Of a DNA stretch of 64,000 nucleotides, positions 6,981-59,176 are shown piece after piece. A model generated the notes under the pieces. It was not told the DNA's origin, searched no databases, and saw only the letters and a program-made list of their open reading frames with translations. The translations under genes and the position numbers were made by a program. How positions within the stretch are numbered: the first letter of the stretch is position 1; every line of letters begins with the position of its first letter. Source of the DNA: an uncultured Chitinophagaceae bacterium (lineage in GTDB: Bacteria; Bacteroidota; Bacteroidia; Chitinophagales; Chitinophagaceae); the NCBI GenBank assembly GCA_903895845.1, contig CAITVK010000096.1, positions 1 through 64,000 of the forward strand, in the 5' to 3' direction.

Positions 6981-7182
6981 GGTGTCATTGAAGGTCAATT
7001 CATGCGCATTGAACACCGACTCTATGCCAATGAAAGCCAATTCAATTCAATCGTAATGAACGCCAACTCGGTCGCATTGAACACCAATCCGATGCCAATG
7101 AACGTCAATGCGGTCGTAATGAAGGCCAATTCACTCGCAATGATTACCAACGAGATTCCAATGAACCCCCATCCGATACTTT
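6981..7182. repeat. 21-nt phased degenerate array
   Basis: The core word (A/T)(A/T)TGAA recurs at 6987, 7008, 7029, 7055, 7076, 7097, 7118, 7139 and 7160 (one degenerate), every step 21 nt except one of 26. Units look like GTCGCATTGAACACCAATCC, with short CATTG/CAATG symmetry. Sequence identity between units is low, so the phase is better conserved than the bases. Confidence 0.8.
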
Positions 7183-20167: not shown

Positions 20168-20533
20168 TTTTACGCAAACACTAGTCTTTGCACCCCAAAC
20201 ACTAGTGTTTGCACTCTAAACACTAGTGTTTGCACCCTAAACACTAGCGTTTGAACTCTAAACACTAGTGTTTGCACTCTAAACACTAGTGTTTGCACTC
20301 TAAACAGTAGTGTTTGCACCCTAAACAGTAGTGTTTGCACCCTAAACATTAGTGTTTGCACCCTAAACACTAATGTTTGCACTCTAAACACTACTGTTTG
20401 CAATCTAAACACTACTGTTTGCACCCCAAACACATGTGTTTGAACCCTAAACACTAGTGTTTGCACTCTAAACACTACTGTTTGCACCCTAAACACTAGT
20501 GTTTGGACCTTAAACCGTAGTGTTTGCGTAAAA
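20168..20533. repeat. 17-unit 21-nt palindromic array bounded by a 12-bp inverted repeat
   Basis: Seventeen contiguous 21-nt units (20177-20533) of the type AACACTAGTGTTTGCACTCT. Most units carry the 14-bp palindrome AAACACTAGTGTTT or a one-base variant. The array edges are a perfect 12-bp inverted repeat, TTTTACGCAAAC (20168-20179) and GTTTGCGTAAAA (20522-20533). The long frame on the minus strand (a repeated FRVQTLV heptad) follows from the 21-nt period and has no start context that supports translation. Confidence 0.92.
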
Positions 20534-48802: not shown

Positions 48803-49057
48803 CTACTCAACGATAGTACGTTTATTTTTCATCCTCTTTGCCGCATAGCCAATACCACTGGCAGCTAGTATCAGACTCATGCCACCATCAAAGGGAACCA
48901 CAGGCCCGCCATCGCCACCAACGCCTTCACTGGGACTACCTGGTCCGCCAATGCCCGGATCATCTGCCGGAGACTGTGCCTTGGAGATGGTTGTTACACA
49001 AATACTTACCAGAAGGATAAAACCAAGCGTGCGGAGTGCCTTAACTGTTTGTTGCAT
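48803..49057 (-). CDS. Small exported PID-CTERM-like protein
   Basis: An 84-residue protein: signal peptide to SKAQS (~28), a Gly/Pro/Asp-rich mature stretch (PGIGGPGSPSEGVGGDGG), then VPFDGGMSLILAASGIGYAA and a basic end KRMKNKR. A short P-x-DGG motif, one hydrophobic helix and a basic tail is the arrangement of the PID-CTERM protein-sorting tail of Bacteroidota, thought to be processed by an exosortase-like enzyme. Here PFDGG replaces PIDGG. The mature part would be only about 25-30 residues long. No exosortase gene is in the window. Confidence 0.65.
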   Translation of the reverse strand: MQQTVKALRTLGFILLVSICVTTISKAQSPADDPGIGGPGSPSEGVGGDGGPVVPFDGGMSLILAASGIGYAAKRMKNKRTIVE

Positions 49058-49202
49058 ACTATTTTGTATTAAAAGTGTTTATTGATTGATTGACTAACCA
49101 CTGTTATTCATCCAAAAGCAATTCTTTTCTTTATTCTTTATTGATGAATGAATCTATTTTTTATTGATTGAAAGAACCATTGCCCAACCCCGAAATGTAT
49201 TT

Positions 49203-49748
49203 GTACCAATACCGATGCGCCCGACACAGAAAATCTTCGAATTCATGTAGTCGGTTAGATGACTGACACAGCGAATCTTCGAATTTGTACAGTCGGCCAG
49301 ATGACCGACACAGCAAATCTTTAAATTCATGTAGTCAGTTAGATGACCGACATAAAAAATCTTCGAACTCATGTAGTCGGTTAGATGACCGACACAGCGA
49401 ATCTTCAAATTTATGTAGTCAGTTAAATGACCGACACGGCAAATTTTTGTATTTGCCCTAGCACAAGAACTCGTGACACAGCAAATCTTCGAATTTGCCC
49501 TAGCACAAGAACTCGTGTTACAGCAAATCTTCGAATTTGCCCTAGCACGAGAACTCGTGACACAGCAAATCTTCTAATTCGCCCTGACACGAGAACTCGT
49601 GACACAGCAAATCTTCGAATTCGCCATAGCACGAGAACTCGTGTTACAGCAAATCTTCGAATTCACCCTGACACAAGAACTCGTGTTACAGCAAATCTTC
49701 GAATTCGCCCTAGCACGAGAACTCGTGTTATAGCAAATCTTTTTCCTC
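49203..49748. repeat. 26-unit modular 21-nt array with alternating and swapped half units
   Basis: Contiguous 21-nt units alternate X-Y-X-Y. X (13 copies) is based on ACAGCAAATCTTCGAATT. Y exists in two unrelated types: Y1 based on GTAGTCGGTTAGATGACCG (six copies, 49203-49433, the first degenerate) and Y2 based on CTAGCACGAGAACTCGTG (seven copies, 49455-49727). Y1 contains GTCGGT/ACCGAC and Y2 contains CACGAG/CTCGTG inverted repeats. The X unit stays the same across the switch at 49434-49455. No translation signal is seen for the open frames created by the period. Confidence 0.93.
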
Positions 49749-49849: not shown

Positions 49850-52800
49850 CTAATTTTCAACTATCAAGCTACTTTGATGAACCACTTGCTTGCTGTTTGC
49901 TTCGCTGATGCTCACATTGTACACTCCCGCAGCCAATGCGCTATTGATGCTGATGGCGTGTGTTGCACTTCCACCCGTATGACTGATTGTTTGTGCAATC
50001 ACCCTTTGTCCCAACGCATTGTAGATGCTGACCGTGTATTTTCCTGCAACCACATTATCCAAAGACATATTAAGGGTCTTGCCTGTTAGTGGGTTAGGAT
50101 ACAAGGCATAAGTCGTAAGTCTTAAGTCATAAGTCACTTTAGCAACGTTGCTGTAAGAGATGCTACCTGCCGAGCTTATTGCCTTGATGCGGTAGTAAGT
50201 AGTTGTGGTTACACTGTTGTCAGTTGAAGTATAACTGGCAGTTGCCGTATTTTTAGCAGTAACCTGACCGATTGCTGTGAAGCTCTTGGCATCGGTAGAT
50301 TTCTCTACTTCATAAGAAGCTACATTCTTCTCCCCTACTGTGTTCCAGGTGATGGTTGCTGTCTTATTGCTCAGGCTTGCATTGGCAACGATACTATTTA
50401 CTGGCAATGCACTTGGTGCAAACAGGATAGTGAATCGGTTGCTGAAACTAGCAGCCTTCGCTGTATCAACAGTGAAATCTACTGTGGAAGTTCCTGTGCC
50501 CAATGCCTTGGTAGTATTCTTGAAAGCATCATACAACAATGGTTCGAACCCGTTATTGGCATAGGCAGAAGCATCAATACTCAAGCGATAAGCTGTTGCA
50601 GTAGGATTAGAAATCTTCAGTGCAATGGCGTCACTTGCAGTCGCAGGCAATCTTCCATCAATACTTAAATTCTTGCCTTTATCGCTGATTGCTAAATTAT
50701 CCGTAGTACTACTGAACTTGATGGCATCTTGAGGACCATAGGCTTTGTTGCCAAAGTCTGACCTGAAGGCTACTGCTGCCCCATCTACCATATCGTAAGT
50801 TGTTGCACCAGTAGTTTGTTTTAACAAGCTTACATAAATCTTACTCAACTGAGCAGCACCAAAGACAGAAGTCTTAGTAGTAGAAGCCACTTTAGCATTC
50901 TCTTTGAATAACACTTGTGGGTTTGAACCAATTGTCTGAACAAATACGGCTTGTCCAGCTTGAATATTACCCAATACAGTTGTCGTGCCGTAAGTCTTAT
51001 TACCGCCACCTACAGTATCATAAGTAGTTGCAGACGGGATAGTTGCAGTACCAGTTAAAGCATTATAGGCCAAGTATCTGCCTGTTGCTCCGTAAGTAGG
51101 ATCCAAGTACCAATAACTGCCATTAATGTTTGAGGTTGCAGCACCACCTGATGTTGAATAAACAGAGCTCCATTGTACAGGACATACATAAGGATTAGCT
51201 ACTAAACTAAAGCCTCCTACTGTAGTATTCAAGCCAACTGTATTATCGCCTCCTGTGACTGTATTTGTTACACCACCATTTGCAAGCGTTCTGTAAGTGA
51301 CATCACCAGTTACTAACTGACCAGTTGCACGAAGCGTAGTGGCATTGAACATAGCCAAACCAGACTGTGTGTTAGTGACAGGTGACGTATACAAATTAGC
51401 ACTTCTGTCGCCACGAATCAACAACCTATAGCCTGTGAATGGATTAAGGTTAGTGCTCGTAGTATTAGTTAATGCTTTAAAATGGCCATAGATAGGAATA
51501 GGGTTCGTATACAAAGGATCATAGGTATAATCTTGTGTATTTAAACCAGCAATAGCTGCATAATCAAAGCCATTAGCATCTAACTTACCAGCATTAGTAG
51601 CATCCGCAGTATTTGAACCTGTTATAAAGATACCATAACCTGGTTTTGGATTAGAATTTACATTTGTTGCACCCTCCTGCCAGTTTGCATTGATAGTACC
51701 TGCACCATACACTTCAGGAGCCATATCGCGATAACCACGGAAGCCCTTAGGGATGTAACGCTCAACGGTTACATTGCCACTGATTGCCCCCTTGTTTGTA
51801 ACACCATCTATTGCGGCGAGGGTACCTGTATTAGCAAGACTGATTGACTTCAAAGTAACATTACCATTGGTGGTCAATGTGCCATTTTGCAAGTTCAACA
51901 ATCCTGTTATACCCAAACTGTTACCAGCACCAGTTGTCACAGTTGCACCATTGCTATTGTTCAGTGTAAAGTTGCCTATAATACCATTTCCGCTGACAGT
52001 TTGGGCAGCAGTACCAGACAGGATGATTGTTCCTGCACCAGAGACAGTTCCATTGTTAGTAAAGCCATATAATACATTTAGATTAGCGCTATTGGCAACA
52101 GTTGCACCAGAAGCGATGCTTAAAGCAGGAATTGTTGTTGCGGAGGTGATGCTAACGTTAGCACCACTGTTTACGCTGATTACTGTATTAGCTAATGTAG
52201 TTGCAAAAGTTCCAGAATTTGTAAATGTTTGTACACCGCTTCCTTTGAAAACGATTGCATTACTATCTGTTGCAGGTGTATTGGTTGTGATAGTGCCCGC
52301 ATTGTTGAAGCTGCCACCAAGTAGATTAATCACACATGAAGAAGCACCAGCACCCTTGTTTAAATAGAAAGAGCTACCAGAAGTCATGGAGAAATTACCA
52401 CCCAGGTTGTAGATAGCATATCCTTTGTTGGTGCTACCATTTGTATATACTTGTGAATTACCACTGATACTAAAGTTGCCTCCTATGCTAATGGTGTTTG
52501 AAGCAGCAGCCGCCATTCCAAGGAATCTAAGGACATTAGACCCTGTACTACTAATGGTTAGATTACCATTGATAGTCGTGTTTCCGAATATCGGTCCAGC
52601 AGGAACTGATTGTGAAGGACAGTTCCAAGTAACATTATAGAATGTTGAACCTGAAAAAGTAGGTGACGTAGTAGAGATTGCATTTAGCAATAATGTACTT
52701 CCAGTACCCCAAGTAGCGAAAGGAATTGTTCCTCCATTGATATTATGTTCATACGTACTTCCTGCGCCAGTAACATTTAAGACACCAGTAACAGTGTTGT

Positions 52801-55800
52801 TAGTAGCGGTGACTGTACCAGAATTTTTAAAGTATCCATATACATTTAAGGTCGCAGTGGCATTACTTATGTTTATTGAACCACCTGCTGCCACTGTACA
52901 GCTAGCTGTGGATGCAATAGTAAGGGTTCCTTTAGGGGAGATAATCAAACTTCCCGTGGAGGCAGTGCCCGTACCAATAGTAAGTGTAGATGTTCCACTT
53001 ATAGTTACCGCAGCATTATTGGTACTATCCCCAATAGTCAGTATTGTTCCTGAACCAGAGAAGGTAGTAGATGTTCCTACGTAATTACCTATACCATTCT
53101 TTAGATTGTAAGTTGCATTAGAACCAGTAAAATTAGCAGGATGCATACCAGTTCCATCTGGATTGTCGCCCCAGTTATTTACATTAGACACATCACTGTT
53201 AGCCACATTAAAGTAGATAGGATTGGTGATTGTCTGAACTCCACCAGCAGCAACAGTACCGGTTGTATTTTCATTTAATACATAAGCTAATGCACCAGAC
53301 GTAATTGCATTTGCAGTAATTGTGTGTCCTAATACTGCACTGGTATTGGATACGTCAGTTGTAATCCAGAAATATCCTTTTGAGCCATTGGCAACAGTTT
53401 GAGTAAATGAAGAGAATACAATAGGGCTTGTTGAAAGTGCAGAACTCACCGTAGCCAAAAGGTTGGCTGTACTGAAAGTACTTGATGAGGTATAGTACAA
53501 CTTAAAATTAGTTAACTCTGTAGCTCCAACAGTGGCGGTAATAGGGACACTCAGGCTTGTGAGTGTAACAGCGCTACCACTTGGTGTGATATAGAAGTTT
53601 GTGAGTGCGTTGTTTGTAGATCCTGGGAAAATGTTACCGACGGCAACTGGACTGAATCCTACTAAAGAAACTGATGCAGTAGCAGCAACTGTAATGATGC
53701 CAGACTTAGAAGCAGCAGGTGTACCATCTGTTGTTACGGTATATCCATAATTACCTGCAACGGTAGCTTTGCCAGAAATTGTTACTACATTATTTACTAA
53801 ATCTACTGAAACAGATAACCCTGTAGGAACGGTAGTACTAGATGCTGTACCTGTCCATGAAACTGATGCAGTACTTGCAGAGCCACTGAAGTCGTAAGTG
53901 ATGTCGGTGATTGATGTAGTTGTGTTAGCTGTTTGTCCATCGGTTCCTACAGCACTAGAAAGAGCCAGTGTCGCAGCACTTGGAGGTCCTACAGTAAAGA
54001 TAGATGGACTAGTAATAGACGTGTTATTGAGGGTAGTTGTGTAATTTGGATTACTACCACTGGTACTACTATTATCCAAAGCAGTTCCCCATGAAGAGCC
54101 AGAATAACTATAGACCATACCTGCTTTCTGAGAAAGGCCTACATTGTCAGTACCACTAATCCAAGTGAAAGCTATTACAGAAGAAGTTGATGTTACGCCA
54201 CCAATAGTCCACATTGCTTTTAAGCTATTGGTTAATGCAGGTGATATTGCTGCTACTTTAACTGTAGGCGTTTCTGCTGTTGGCGTGATGGTTACTGGAT
54301 TGTAACTGCCAGTACTGTATCCTACAGGGAAAGTGTACGGACTACTGAATGTACTTGTTGAAGTAACATAGCCAGAACCATTTGTCAATATATGATTTGC
54401 TACACCCAATGTTCCTGAAACCGCATGTGCAGAAGACAATGCCAGGTTATTACTTCCCAATGATAACTGACCACTAGTAAGCGCTAAAGTACCATTAACC
54501 GAAGCATTACTTCCTAAAACGACTCCGTTAGAAGAGTTAATAGTCAAGTTATTTAAGACAGTTGCTGTAGAAGGTATCTCTAGACCTGTAGTGATTGCTG
54601 AAGCGTTTTGGGTATAAATAACATTTACTGTTGTACCAAAATTTGGCGTGGATGCGATTGTACCGCCTGAGCGAGAGATTGTTGCACCATTGCCCAATGT
54701 TAAAACAGTACTGTTAGCCAAGGCACCTGATGTCAATATTAAAGTACCTGAAACAGTTGTTGCACCACTTAGGGTAACACCAGCACTATTGTTAATAGTT
54801 AGGTTTGCAGCATTAGTCAATAATGCCCCAGTTGTTTGTGCACTACTTCCACTGAAAACGTAATTGGCAGCAGGGTCTAGCGTAATTGTACTTGTTGTTG
54901 GCAAGTTGCCGTTGATACCAGTTCCACTTGTTGTTTGTAGAGTAGCACCAGCATTCAAATTAAATTTGTAAGGAGTTGCGATTGTATTTGCTCCAATATT
55001 TAATGTTTCTCCACTTGGCACAGTCACGTTTACATTTGTAAATGCACCTGCAGTTGCTGAGTTGGTATAAGTATGTATTGTACTACCTTGGAATGTGATT
55101 GTATTCACCAATCCCAAACCAGTAGTTCCTGCTGTAATTGTTCCTCCGGTAACATTCAGGTTACCTGTAATAAACAATGTAGTAGGTGTTGTTTGAGAAG
55201 AACCACCCGTATTGAAGTAAAATGTTCCAGCAGAAAGATTAAAGTCACCCCCTATGTAAACATTTGCAACGCCTGTTCCACTACTTCCACTTACGCTTAC
55301 TTGTGCATTAGCGCCACTGATTGTAAGACTTCCGCTAATGGTTGTTGTTGTTGTACCACTGATACCATAGAACCTAACCGGTTGATTATTTGAATTATTA
55401 ACCGTAAAACTTCCTGCAAGGGTTTTACCAGCCCAGCTAAATGCAAGCGCCGTATTTTGATTGGCGGAGTTCCATGTTACATTATAAAATGGCAATGGAG
55501 TAGGACTTAAGTTCGGCGGCAGGTTAGCAGTTACACCACTCACCAACAAAGTTGATCCTGTACTCCAAGTAGCTGCAACTGGTACAGCTGCATTTGCAAT
55601 GGCAGTAGGGTTACCGCCCACTTCATAGGTTCCATTCACAACAAAGTTTGCTACGGCCGTATTATCGGTAATAGCACCATAGTTTGTTAAAGTACCACTG
55701 ATTGTCAAAGTTGCATTGGCTGCAACGGTCAATATGGTGTTTGTAGCAACATTATAAGAAGCAAGCGTTCCAATGGTGAGTACTTTTGAAGCTGCAATGG

Positions 55801-58800
55801 AAAGCCCGGCAGCATTTGTTCCATCACCAATAGTAAATGTTGTACCAAGACCAGAGAATGCGATACTAGTTCCAACTGTATTAGCAGAGCCATTGTATAG
55901 GTTATAAGTTACATTGGCAACAGTAAAGCTCGATGGGTGTGTACCACTACCATCCGGATTTGTGCCCCAATTGTTTAAGTTAGATATATCACTATTCAAT
56001 ACATTATAATAAGTGGGATATACCAATGTAAGTGTACCGCCTGCTGCCACGCTACCAGAATTTGTGACAGTGTTTCCAAATGTAAGGTTACTACCACTGA
56101 TAGAAGCTGCAGAGATTGTGTGTGTAGAAGTTGCTGAGGCAGAAAAGTCCACTGTTACCCAGAAGTAGCCTGTTGAGCCACTACCTATCGCTTGAGAAAA
56201 AGAGGGAAACACAATAGGAGATGTTGCCAATCCACTTGTTGCCGTTGACAACAAGGTAGGTGAAGTAAAACTGCTATTTGTTGTATAATAAAGTTTATAG
56301 TTAGTCAAATCACCTGCTACCAATCCACCGCCTGCTGTAATTGGCAAACTGAGTCCTGTTACAGAGCTACTTGCATTTGCAACAGCAATTGAGAAGTTCG
56401 TAAGTGAAACACTAGTAGTTCCATTGAACACATTGGCATTACCTACAGAACTAATTGCAGAAATTGTAACTGCAGGAGTGGCCGTAATAGTTAATGTACC
56501 TGTTGCAGTTGCTGCAGGAGAACCTCCAACAGTTGTAACAGTATATCCATAACTACCCGCAACCGATGCAGTACCAGAGATACTGACGCTACTACTTGTA
56601 TTTACAGTAATACCAGTTGGCGGCGTACTGCTTCCACTTGTACCTGTCCACGTAACAGACGCCCCGGTTGCAGCACCTCCCCAAGAATAAGTAATGGTAG
56701 TAATAGCAGAAGCAGTATTAGTGGTTTGAGCATCTGTGCCAGTTGCACTTGTCAAGCTGACGGTAGGGGTTGCATTTGGACCAACGCCGAACGTACTTGT
56801 ATTAGAAATAGTAACTCCTGTTAAGGTGGTGGTATAACTAGGTGAAGCCCCTCCTGTGCTACTGCCTGAAATCGATGACCACGCAGAACCATTGTAGCTG
56901 TACAAAATCATCCCTGCTTGAAAGGTACCAGAAATATCAGTTGAACTATTCCAAGGAAATGCAAGCGTAGTAGATGAGGAGGTAAGACCACCAATTGTCC
57001 ACATGGCTTTAGTACTCACTGTAGCAGACAAAGTGGGGCTAATTGACTTAACTAAAACGCTTGGAGTCTCATTATTGGGTGTAATGGCAACGGGGTTATA
57101 GTTGCTTCCATCATACCCAACAGGGAAAGTGTAGGAAGTACTAAATGCAGTAGTGGTTGTAACTACCCCTGTGCCATTTGTAACAATATGTTTAGACGTA
57201 CTCGGTGTCCCCGCCACTGGATTGGCATTGTTAAGTGTAAGGTTATTATTTCCTATTGTAAGGTTTCCGCCAAGGGTCAAGGTGCCATTTACAGTCGCGG
57301 CTGCATTAAGGGTTACGCCATTGGTGGAAGTAACATTCAAATTGTTTAAAACACTAGTACTAGTGGGCAACTCAACTCCCGTTATGATAGCAGAAGCGTT
57401 TTGCCCGTAGGTAACATTCACTGAAGTACCAAAAGTTGGTGCAGCAGAGATAGTTCCACCCAAGCGGGTAATGGTTGCACTATTGCCCAACGTGAAAGAT
57501 AGACTGTTTAAATTAAACGCCCCTGCTGTCAAAGAAATGGCACTGCTTACAGTCGTTGCTTGAGAGAGAGTTACCCCAGCAGTGTTGTTAACTGTCAACC
57601 CATTTATTGTTGCAGGCATCAATGCACCTGTTACTTGAGCACTCGAACCGTTGAAACTATAGTTTGCCCCTGTAGAAAGCGATGGAACTGAAGTTGAACC
57701 GAAGCTAGCGTTATTAGCGATACCTCCTGTGTTTGCAGTCTGCAAGGTTGCACCCGAATTAAGCGTGAACCCAATACCATTCGGAATAACAGAAGTACCC
57801 ACATCAAGTGTAGAACCACTGTTTACAGTAAAGTTAACGCTTGTAGATGTAGCACTGAAAATCGTTCCCGTGTTGCTATATGTTTGTGTGCCAGACTTAT
57901 TGAAAGTAAATGTGTAAGTACTCCTACCAGTAAATGGAGATGCAGAAATAGTACTGTTATTACCTGTGATAGTTCCAACATTGCTCAAGTTACCACTTAG
58001 TGTAATATTTGTATTTGTTGAAGCAGCGCCAGAAGTCGAGTTTGCACCACCGCCATTTAGATTAAAAGTTCCACCAGCTGCAGTAGCAAGATTTCCTTTA
58101 ATAATGATATTATAAGTCCCAAAAGCAGATCCGCTTCCATTAGTGCTTAATATAGCTTTTAGGCTGGTAGTAGTACTGTTTATGTTAGCTGGAGTAGTAT
58201 CCCCCACAACAACACTACCATTAATTGTAAAATTGTAAGTGCTACCATTTGTAACGGAAGTCATACGTATCTGTTGGTTGTTTGTGCTTTTCACCCACAA
58301 AGTCCCATTTATTGTCATAGATGTAGTTGATGTATTCCACCACTGTATAGTGCCCGATTGAGCTTGGCAATCCCATGTTAGATTATAAAACGATTGAGTC
58401 ATCCCACCAGGATTAGCTGCAGCTTGTGAGGTTACATAACAAGTTGAACCTGTGCCCCAAGTTACTGTTGGAATGGTTCCACCAGCGGTGTTATGTTGAT
58501 AGAGACCATTCACAGTACACATTGTGGCTGTAAGCCCAGTAACAGTACCTCCACTAGAACAGACAAGTGTACCATTAATTTGTACAGATCCTGCCCCATC
58601 ACCAGCATTTGCAGCTAATGTTCCTGAAACAGTGAGTGTTGAACCTGTTGCCACAGTTAATGCGCCACTAGTACCAACAACTGAATTCCCAACTGTTAGC
58701 GTAAAAGTAGCGCTCACTGTCAACCCCGCAGCTGTAGTACCATCACCAATAACCAACGTAACAGGGGCAGAACTACTTGAACTTGCAAAAGCAACTGTTG

Positions 58801-59176
58801 CACCTACAATATTAGTTGTACCATTATAAACCCTAAAAATGTCGCCCGAAGTAGTGAAATTTGAAGGATGCCCTGTTCCTGTACTACCATCTGTATTGGT
58901 ACCCCAATTGTTTACATTAGAAATATCCGAATTGGCGACATTGTAATAGATCGTTGCATTGGCAGCGAACCCGAATAAAAATAAGGATAGCAATGTCAGA
59001 AACATTAGCTTTTTAAAGCCATTGCTAGCATTATTCACTTTTTTCAATTCAGATAAGTCGCCCATGGGCGTAGCAGAGAGAGGCAATTTGTGCATTTTCA
59101 TATAGTGCGTGTTGTTGATTAAAAGGTTAAGGGAATACCCAAATGGCAACTGAAAATCGTGTATCATTTTCTTCAT
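49850..59176 (-). CDS. Giant T9SS-secreted protein built of three large repeats
   Basis: A 3108-residue protein. The hydrophobic signal segment lies unusually far in (~56-75, LMFLTLLSLFLFGFAANA), so the true start may be a later Met (MKMHKLPLS at ~27). Three modules begin at residues ~76, ~1050 and ~1985 with (Y/F)NVxNSDxSNxNNWGxNxDG and continue into solenoid-like Thr/Ser/Asn-rich repeats. Modules 1 and 2 also hold Ig-like domains and a FWVTxDxS segment like sialidase/BNR-associated N-terminal domains. C-terminal region: an ERYIPKGFRGYRD domain, fibronectin-like VASYEVEKSTDAKSFTAIGQ, and a T9SS type A sorting domain (YPNPLTGKTLNMSL to LIVEN). No catalytic domain is seen; probably an adhesin or surface-layer protein. 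Confidence 0.88.
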   Translation of the reverse strand: MKKMIHDFQLPFGYSLNLLINNTHYMKMHKLPLSATPMGDLSELKKVNNASNGFKKLMFLTLLSLFLFGFAANATIYYNVANSDISNVNNWGTNTDGSTGTGHPSNFTTSGDIFRVYNGTTNIVGATVAFASSSSSAPVTLVIGDGTTAAGLTVSATFTLTVGNSVVGTSGALTVATGSTLTVSGTLAANAGDGAGSVQINGTLVCSSGGTVTGLTATMCTVNGLYQHNTAGGTIPTVTWGTGSTCYVTSQAAANPGGMTQSFYNLTWDCQAQSGTIQWWNTSTTSMTINGTLWVKSTNNQQIRMTSVTNGSTYNFTINGSVVVGDTTPANINSTTTSLKAILSTNGSGSAFGTYNIIIKGNLATAAGGTFNLNGGGANSTSGAASTNTNITLSGNLSNVGTITGNNSTISASPFTGRSTYTFTFNKSGTQTYSNTGTIFSATSTSVNFTVNSGSTLDVGTSVIPNGIGFTLNSGATLQTANTGGIANNASFGSTSVPSLSTGANYSFNGSSAQVTGALMPATINGLTVNNTAGVTLSQATTVSSAISLTAGAFNLNSLSFTLGNSATITRLGGTISAAPTFGTSVNVTYGQNASAIITGVELPTSTSVLNNLNVTSTNGVTLNAAATVNGTLTLGGNLTIGNNNLTLNNANPVAGTPSTSKHIVTNGTGVVTTTTAFSTSYTFPVGYDGSNYNPVAITPNNETPSVLVKSISPTLSATVSTKAMWTIGGLTSSSTTLAFPWNSSTDISGTFQAGMILYSYNGSAWSSISGSSTGGASPSYTTTLTGVTISNTSTFGVGPNATPTVSLTSATGTDAQTTNTASAITTITYSWGGAATGASVTWTGTSGSSTPPTGITVNTSSSVSISGTASVAGSYGYTVTTVGGSPAATATGTLTITATPAVTISAISSVGNANVFNGTTSVSLTNFSIAVANASSSVTGLSLPITAGGGLVAGDLTNYKLYYTTNSSFTSPTLLSTATSGLATSPIVFPSFSQAIGSGSTGYFWVTVDFSASATSTHTISAASISGSNLTFGNTVTNSGSVAAGGTLTLVYPTYYNVLNSDISNLNNWGTNPDGSGTHPSSFTVANVTYNLYNGSANTVGTSIAFSGLGTTFTIGDGTNAAGLSIAASKVLTIGTLASYNVATNTILTVAANATLTISGTLTNYGAITDNTAVANFVVNGTYEVGGNPTAIANAAVPVAATWSTGSTLLVSGVTANLPPNLSPTPLPFYNVTWNSANQNTALAFSWAGKTLAGSFTVNNSNNQPVRFYGISGTTTTTISGSLTISGANAQVSVSGSSGTGVANVYIGGDFNLSAGTFYFNTGGSSQTTPTTLFITGNLNVTGGTITAGTTGLGLVNTITFQGSTIHTYTNSATAGAFTNVNVTVPSGETLNIGANTIATPYKFNLNAGATLQTTSGTGINGNLPTTSTITLDPAANYVFSGSSAQTTGALLTNAANLTINNSAGVTLSGATTVSGTLILTSGALANSTVLTLGNGATISRSGGTIASTPNFGTTVNVIYTQNASAITTGLEIPSTATVLNNLTINSSNGVVLGSNASVNGTLALTSGQLSLGSNNLALSSAHAVSGTLGVANHILTNGSGYVTSTSTFSSPYTFPVGYSTGSYNPVTITPTAETPTVKVAAISPALTNSLKAMWTIGGVTSTSSVIAFTWISGTDNVGLSQKAGMVYSYSGSSWGTALDNSSTSGSNPNYTTTLNNTSITSPSIFTVGPPSAATLALSSAVGTDGQTANTTTSITDITYDFSGSASTASVSWTGTASSTTVPTGLSVSVDLVNNVVTISGKATVAGNYGYTVTTDGTPAASKSGIITVAATASVSLVGFSPVAVGNIFPGSTNNALTNFYITPSGSAVTLTSLSVPITATVGATELTNFKLYYTSSSTFSTANLLATVSSALSTSPIVFSSFTQTVANGSKGYFWITTDVSNTSAVLGHTITANAITSGALAYVLNENTTGTVAAGGVQTITNPIYFNVANSDVSNVNNWGDNPDGTGMHPANFTGSNATYNLKNGIGNYVGTSTTFSGSGTILTIGDSTNNAAVTISGTSTLTIGTGTASTGSLIISPKGTLTIASTASCTVAAGGSINISNATATLNVYGYFKNSGTVTATNNTVTGVLNVTGAGSTYEHNINGGTIPFATWGTGSTLLLNAISTTSPTFSGSTFYNVTWNCPSQSVPAGPIFGNTTINGNLTISSTGSNVLRFLGMAAAASNTISIGGNFSISGNSQVYTNGSTNKGYAIYNLGGNFSMTSGSSFYLNKGAGASSCVINLLGGSFNNAGTITTNTPATDSNAIVFKGSGVQTFTNSGTFATTLANTVISVNSGANVSITSATTIPALSIASGATVANSANLNVLYGFTNNGTVSGAGTIILSGTAAQTVSGNGIIGNFTLNNSNGATVTTGAGNSLGITGLLNLQNGTLTTNGNVTLKSISLANTGTLAAIDGVTNKGAISGNVTVERYIPKGFRGYRDMAPEVYGAGTINANWQEGATNVNSNPKPGYGIFITGSNTADATNAGKLDANGFDYAAIAGLNTQDYTYDPLYTNPIPIYGHFKALTNTTSTNLNPFTGYRLLIRGDRSANLYTSPVTNTQSGLAMFNATTLRATGQLVTGDVTYRTLANGGVTNTVTGGDNTVGLNTTVGGFSLVANPYVCPVQWSSVYSTSGGAATSNINGSYWYLDPTYGATGRYLAYNALTGTATIPSATTYDTVGGGNKTYGTTTVLGNIQAGQAVFVQTIGSNPQVLFKENAKVASTTKTSVFGAAQLSKIYVSLLKQTTGATTYDMVDGAAVAFRSDFGNKAYGPQDAIKFSSTTDNLAISDKGKNLSIDGRLPATASDAIALKISNPTATAYRLSIDASAYANNGFEPLLYDAFKNTTKALGTGTSTVDFTVDTAKAASFSNRFTILFAPSALPVNSIVANASLSNKTATITWNTVGEKNVASYEVEKSTDAKSFTAIGQVTAKNTATASYTSTDNSVTTTTYYRIKAISSAGSISYSNVAKVTYDLRLTTYALYPNPLTGKTLNMSLDNVVAGKYTVSIYNALGQRVIAQTISHTGGSATHAISINSALAAGVYNVSISEANSKQVVHQSSLIVEN
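50107..50138 (-). repeat. 7-nt phased repeat inside the second giant gene, just before the sorting domain
   Basis: On the plus strand TAAGTCG, TAAGTCT, TAAGTCA, TAAGTCA run in exact 7-nt register. On the coding strand they encode VTYDLRLTTYA, the linker directly before the T9SS sorting domain (LYPNPLTG). The first giant gene has the same feature at the same domain boundary. Confidence 0.8.

Follow-up and report, generated by a model that had tools for sequence, protein, structure and literature searches.

Short palindromic intergenic repeats of the REP, REPIN and BIME kind are dispersed singly, together with a RAYT transposase, and iterons are phased repeat sites at a replication origin. Type III toxin-antitoxin loci (ToxIN, CptIN, TenpIN) carry tandem repeats of 34–45 nt directly before a protein gene. 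The antitoxin of these loci is a repeat RNA (PMC8860590). In TIGR-Tas systems, arrays with a 36-nt functional unit lie beside a small protein gene; differing 8–12-nt spacers sit next to box C/D motifs, the protein has a Nop domain, and some clades have stem-loop arrays with variable palindromes (PMC12045711). Subirana and Messeguer described bacterial tandem repeats of constant size and variable sequence, 20–21 or 52 nt long, whose function is unknown; 20–21 nt corresponds to two helical turns (PMC8161180). The puzzle addressed here is why certain bacteria contain many tandem repeats that agree exactly in length and are unrelated in sequence, and the present case makes it testable.

The window analyzed, a whole stretch of 64,000 nt, comes from a Bacteroidete, whereas the repeats of PMC8161180 are from Bacillus. 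This freshwater Bacteroidetes group carries hundreds of intergenic tandem repeats that hold to a spacing of whole helix turns as their sequence is swapped piecemeal. The kind of array is already known: like the constant-size, variable-sequence repeats, these arrays are noncoding, have a fixed unit of about 21 nt, form several unrelated families per genome and are species-restricted. Unlike PMC8161180, in which a term search returned no mention of palindromes, hairpins or gene linkage, the arrays here have dyads with covariation, a constant and a variable half-unit, in-place replacement and a linked gene family, termed gene A. Four features are new as far as the literature was searched: swapping of half-units, covariation of the inner stem, replacement of arrays in place and linkage to gene A.

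The window array is a 42-nt tandem array of the X family at 49221–49748, with 13 X, 5 Y1 and 7 Y2 half-units, copy numbers that may be wrong in draft MAGs such as the genomes used here. It was read on the (−) strand, the strand of the flanking genes, which was taken as sense. In the 21-nt register, the 13 X copies start at 49221, 49263 and onward to 49725 with 0 indels. Five 42-nt units form the Y1 block (49221–49430, (−) strand; Y1 halves within 49242–49430), and seven units form the Y2 block (49452–49741, (−) strand; Y2 halves within 49452–49724). The switch takes place in the junction unit (49431–49472, (−) strand), where an X variant, GCAAATttttgtATTTGC, stands between Y1 and Y2. A degenerate terminal unit at 49179–49220, reading TTGGTACAAATACATTT on the (−) strand, marks the array edge and is also found at the edge of the array on contig C121.

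The consensus X halves of the two blocks are identical at 19 of 21 sites and have a stretch of 22 nt in common (GACACAGCAAATCTTCGAATTC), whereas consensus Y1 and Y2 agree at 5 of 21 sites, the chance level by shuffling (p = 0.50). Each Y unit of the window array matches its own type at 15–21 of 21 sites and the other type at 4–7. The first-pass annotation had claimed that X alternates with Y units that change from Y1 to an unrelated Y2 while X and the 42-nt register continue unbroken, and these values bear it out. The short inverted repeat it had noted in both Y types is also present, as GTCGGT-tagatg-ACCGAC in Y1 and CACGAG-aa-CTCGTG in Y2. Y1–Y2 intermediates, which would speak against a swap, were sought, and none occurs among the Y units of the window array. 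The Y2 block alone gives a TRF score of 436, and period and array length lie far outside chance.

The unit is better described as a 36-nt dyad, ATTTGC-N5-stem(6)-N2-stem(6)-N5-GCAAAT, followed by a 6-nt spacer. In these terms, X comprises the two conserved outer arms plus the spacer, and Y is the inner stem. With a period of 42 nt, a dyad at Y entails another at X, at a distance of 21 nt; the X and Y palindromes are therefore one property, not two. CRISPR arrays combine identical repeats with unique spacers, and the window array has no unique spacers. A coding repeat was rejected by inspection. Open reading frames on either strand cover parts of the array, but they do not stay in one frame from block to block, and gene-like open reading frames flank the array as a whole.

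A search for X at other loci and in relatives found other combinations both in this genome and in congeners. Within this genome, X stands beside an inner sequence particular to each array on C121 (Y2 only), C13, C34, C55, C111 and the more diverged C41. More than 10 further Y types lie beside X in five or more congeners, and X itself (GCAAAT-N6-ATTTGC) is conserved genus-wide beside these different partners. A pattern search for two X palindromes 42 nt apart returned 25 contigs, nearly all from Chitinophagaceae MAGs. Slippage alone had been said to be unable to yield the pattern, and this is supported. The simplest account of the Y1/Y2 swap would be that two arrays exchanged parts within the 22-nt X stretch, in a direction that is not readable. 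Recombination within X, as proposed in the first-pass annotation, fits the C121 array, which is pure Y2 at an otherwise unrelated locus next to a member of the gene A family and has both ends in common with the window array ('AAAAAGATTTGCTATAACACGAGTTCTCGTG' and 'TCGGTrTTGGTACAAATACATTT'). The proposal stands only in part: recombination is not supported as the sole process, because inner stems of relatives also diverge by compensatory substitution.

On contig C116, the array is present a second time, together with the end of the gene that precedes it in sense and with the small gene, at about 90% identity to the segment 48827–50848 ((−) strand) of the window. This copy has the same Y1/Y2 junction and the same unusual X variant as the window array (contig C96), and the two arrays differ by gain or loss of whole 42-nt units. 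Since the same junction is present in a duplicate on a separate contig, it is not an assembly error, and it is either older than the duplication or was copied along with it. In the relative G010, the flanks on both sides of the array are the same at 74–77% identity, and only a third inner module is present, at both ends.

Compensatory change is visible in relatives, where the core GAGTTCTC is flanked by CAC/GTG, TAA/TTA or AGG/CCT. Array L070 switches from TCC..GGA to CAC..GTG, a second case of a switch inside one array. Across the genus, the inner stems of 21 array consensuses contain 73 Watson–Crick pairs out of 105, compared with 32.4 by shuffling (z 9.2, 18 pair types); sliding the partners by one or two columns in these 21 consensuses gave no pairing signal. 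The outer X arms hardly vary across the same consensuses, and the inner stem varies freely yet pairs. Y is therefore under a pairing constraint or subject to a pairing-restoring process. With compensatory substitution in relatives and exchange between arrays both at work, the turnover of Y consists of exchange plus paired drift. The alignments show, within one family, arrays with a constant X and a Y that has apparently been exchanged or drifts while self-complementary.

These observations led us to a proposal that we hold at about even probability: the arrays are helically phased, dyad-symmetric DNA elements that are rewritten by exchange through shared half-units, with a function that we infer. 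What is kept in the array class is the unit length, 21n nt or whole double turns of B-DNA (41–42 nt in one gene-linked subclass). About half of the arrays also keep dyad symmetry, whereas sequence can be replaced. Recombination, by unequal exchange or gene conversion, would follow when two arrays that have X in common pair within the 22-nt X stretch; 42-nt duplications and deletions would then spread the new unit. As DNA elements, the arrays may work in cis on a gene, in most cases from its 5′ region. A putative reader would recognize phased dyads or bends, not a fixed sequence, and candidates are a nucleoid or architectural protein or action via a supercoiling-dependent structure. A mutational mechanism could be the source of the fixed period instead of function, and quasi-palindrome correction can maintain dyads without selection. 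The case separates what is conserved (period, dyad, position) from what is not (sequence), and it catches replacement half done.

The genome-wide survey covered a sample of 1.22 Mb of the 4.01 Mb genome. Intergenic arrays occur at about 72 per Mb, nearly all with a period of 21, 42, 63 or 84 nt. Among 109 strong tandem arrays in this sample, 99 are intergenic, and 88 of the 99 fall within 1 nt of 21n; together with the several unrelated families in one genome, this places them in the 20–21-nt constant-size class. Intergenic autocorrelation is strongest at lags of 21, 42, 84 and 63, then 3, 4, 126 and 105. Dyads at p ≤ 0.05 were found in 36 of 73 exact-21n arrays against 3.7 expected, and about half of the arrays have no significant dyad. 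Sequence sharing among the 88 arrays is limited to 61 pairs, the remainder being unrelated, in several families and many singletons. Palindromy and phasing resemble those of REP/REPIN/BIME elements and iterons, but here many unrelated sequences occur per genome, and the arrays are not dispersed singly and presumably lack ties to a RAYT transposase or a replication origin.

The window contains three further arrays of this class, none with an assigned strand. A 21-nt array at 20176–20527, unrelated to the window array, consists of 16.8 copies of a perfect 14-nt palindrome, AAACACTAGTGTTT, and a 7-nt spacer (dyad z 3.1, p 0.015). Another unrelated array, at 1–210, has a period of 42 nt and two different 21-nt dyads (dyad z 1.8, p 0.05); it is cut by the start of the window, which is also the start of the contig. 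A degenerate 21/63-nt array is found at 6989–7166. Outside the genus, 21-nt arrays with palindromic-looking units were also seen in Verrucomicrobial MAGs (L087:3260-3683 and L088:226-592; CTTCTGCCGGAAGAACGCGAT and GCATTTGCGCTGCAAAC). Another Bacteroidetes MAG has a 42/84-nt array of alternating palindromes unrelated to X (L090:4882-5332; CAAGACAAGTGTCTTG and CATTCC..GGAATG).

The main rival explanation is that the arrays are neutral satellites that do nothing. A replication mechanism that steps by two helical turns, either slippage or hairpin-primed template switching, would make and rewrite 21n arrays in any noncoding DNA, and quasi-palindrome correction would supply the dyads. Array placement in this genome roughly tracks the amount of intergenic DNA, as that of neutral arrays would. 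Unrelated array sequences, common gains and losses of whole units and dyads that are equal on both strands also agree with neutrality. Against neutrality, the X arms hardly change even as flanks and Y diverge, and three other genera of the family have 0 arrays in 240 kb. With the bias toward gene A described below, we consider neutral satellites unlikely, but the strongest competitor to phased DNA elements. Congeners also carry such arrays (17–135 per Mb in samples of 7–160 kb), and genus members without gene A gave 0 and 1 arrays in small samples of 77 and 67 kb. Several other candidates were rejected. A terminator or 3′ UTR element does not fit because arrays are not concentrated at gene ends, with 6 of 83 between convergent genes and 25 of 83 between divergent genes. 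For a mobile element there was no match in plasmids or viral contigs, for captured viral sequence there was no exact viral match to three unit sequences, and for a known RNA there was no Rfam match at E ≤ 1.

Gene A is a multicopy family encoding a protein of about 319 aa (for example, L005:3522-4481, (+) strand, and homologues in alignment A2). Of 13 genus members, 11 have it, with 2–21 copies each, and its occurrence in the order is sporadic. In relatives, X-family arrays have two settings: a T9SS gene with a PID-CTERM-like small gene after it, or the position immediately before gene A. The window array belongs to the same sequence family as some gene A arrays. In this genome, all 7 gene A copies with upstream sequence have a 41–42-nt array before them. 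Such an array precedes gene A at 31 of 33 loci of the genus and G033, with a few weak or of other period (L231, L240). Elsewhere in the order, 17 of 29 loci have one before the gene (one of the 29, from G033, is already counted in the 33); the downstream control gave 1 of 29. The baseline in this genome is an array upstream of 83 of 813 genes (10%), or 76 of 305 when the count is restricted to genes with 250 nt or more of upstream spacer, a comparison in which the gene A loci are kin by descent and so not independent trials, with array sequences that are mostly unrelated. The excess upstream of gene A speaks against neutral satellites. Each gene A array has 3–9 units of 41–42 nt and lies 30–370 nt before the gene.

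Gene A copies on contigs C21 and C53 encode proteins of 88% identity and have 139-nt leaders of 95% identity, with unrelated arrays of period 41 in both. Since the flanks are conserved and the 41-nt arrays are unrelated, position and period were kept and sequence was replaced. This replacement is the whole-array version of the half-unit swap in the window. Whole arrays are thus shown to be replaceable in place between conserved flanks. A bolder reading, which we consider unlikely, is that gene A and its upstream 41–42-nt array form one undescribed genetic unit, sporadic over several families of the order. The array would be recognized by period and symmetry rather than sequence and would be periodically overwritten, and its wider footprint would be the 21n arrays across the genome, among them the window array. 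Gene A is nearly always preceded by an array, which allows period, symmetry and sequence to be varied separately in experiment.

Searches of Pfam, NCBIfam, PHROG and PADLOC returned no family of note for gene A, and no related sequence was found in PDB. The predicted structure has an N-terminal half with a bundle containing two helices of about 60 residues and a C-terminal beta-sandwich. The best fold matches of residues 223–319 are PirA and Ena appendages at Z about 10, and those of the N-terminal half are helical sensor and LemA-like bundles at Z below 10. Chance arrangements score in the same range, and therefore no family was assigned. On contig C53 of this genome (G000, C53:139263-139638), a 41-nt array of the same sequence as the array before gene A on C21 adjoins about 1.5 kb without a called gene, possibly a decayed gene A locus.

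The layout of gene A arrays resembles that of type III toxin-antitoxin loci, with the array directly upstream of a protein gene; in the window, the next gene encodes a PID-CTERM-like small protein. The arrays might then be transcribed as leader or 3′ UTR RNA of 36-nt hairpins, serving, for instance, to neutralize the neighboring protein as a repeat-RNA antitoxin or to set mRNA stability. Gene-A array units fold better than shuffled sequences (mean z −2.9), and inner stems covary, as RNA hairpins would. An RNA hairpin would, however, be expected to show more G–U than A–C mismatches on the transcribed strand. The wobble G–T to A–C ratio was 44:45 in X arrays, 49:35 in arrays near co-directional genes and 84:79 in 43 gene-A arrays, and both strands fold equally. 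The missing sense-strand G–U excess, the equal folding of strands and the many arrays between divergent genes argue, weakly, for dyads that are probably a property of DNA rather than RNA; neutral decay of copies would blur such a signal. Unlike in type III loci, unit sequence appears not to be tied to the protein, since 88% identical gene A proteins have unrelated units. Type III toxins are endoribonucleases of the ToxN/CptN/TenpN fold; comparison with toxin families gave no Pfam, NCBIfam or PHROG match of note for gene A and weak fold matches, its model lacks a clear match to a solved fold, and the units have no Rfam match. We judge an RNA hairpin array improbable. TIGR-Tas is likewise similar in having an array with a 36-nt unit beside a small protein gene. 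Unlike TIGR-Tas, the units here are near copies within an array, the only change being that between the Y1 and Y2 blocks, so that differing spacers are lacking. As to a Nop domain, 30 gene A members gave no Pfam match at E 0.01, and the modeled N-terminal half, a bundle of long helices, has no clear structural match.

The constancy of X could also reflect a sequence-specific operator array, in which a dimeric regulator binds GCAAAT-N6-ATTTGC repeatedly on one DNA face. In its favor, some 20 arrays of the genus have nearly invariant X arms, and 42 nt would hold the sites in helical phase. This reading is quite improbable: outside arrays the spaced motif shows no clear enrichment against a spacer of 7 as control, with several genomes at background, most arrays in the genome lack X, and near-identical gene A copies have unrelated units.

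In sense direction, the window array follows the gene for a 3108-aa secreted protein (49850–59176, (−) strand) with a T9SS type A sorting domain (Por_Secre_tail), the C-terminal part of which is duplicated on C116 together with the array. It precedes a gene (48803–49057, (−) strand) that starts 146 nt past the array and encodes an 84-aa small protein with a PID-CTERM-like sorting tail, which scores 23.1 bits against NF046080, under the 26-bit cutoff. The trio of a T9SS-sorted giant protein, an array and a short PID-CTERM-like protein recurs in relatives (L086, L078, L079).
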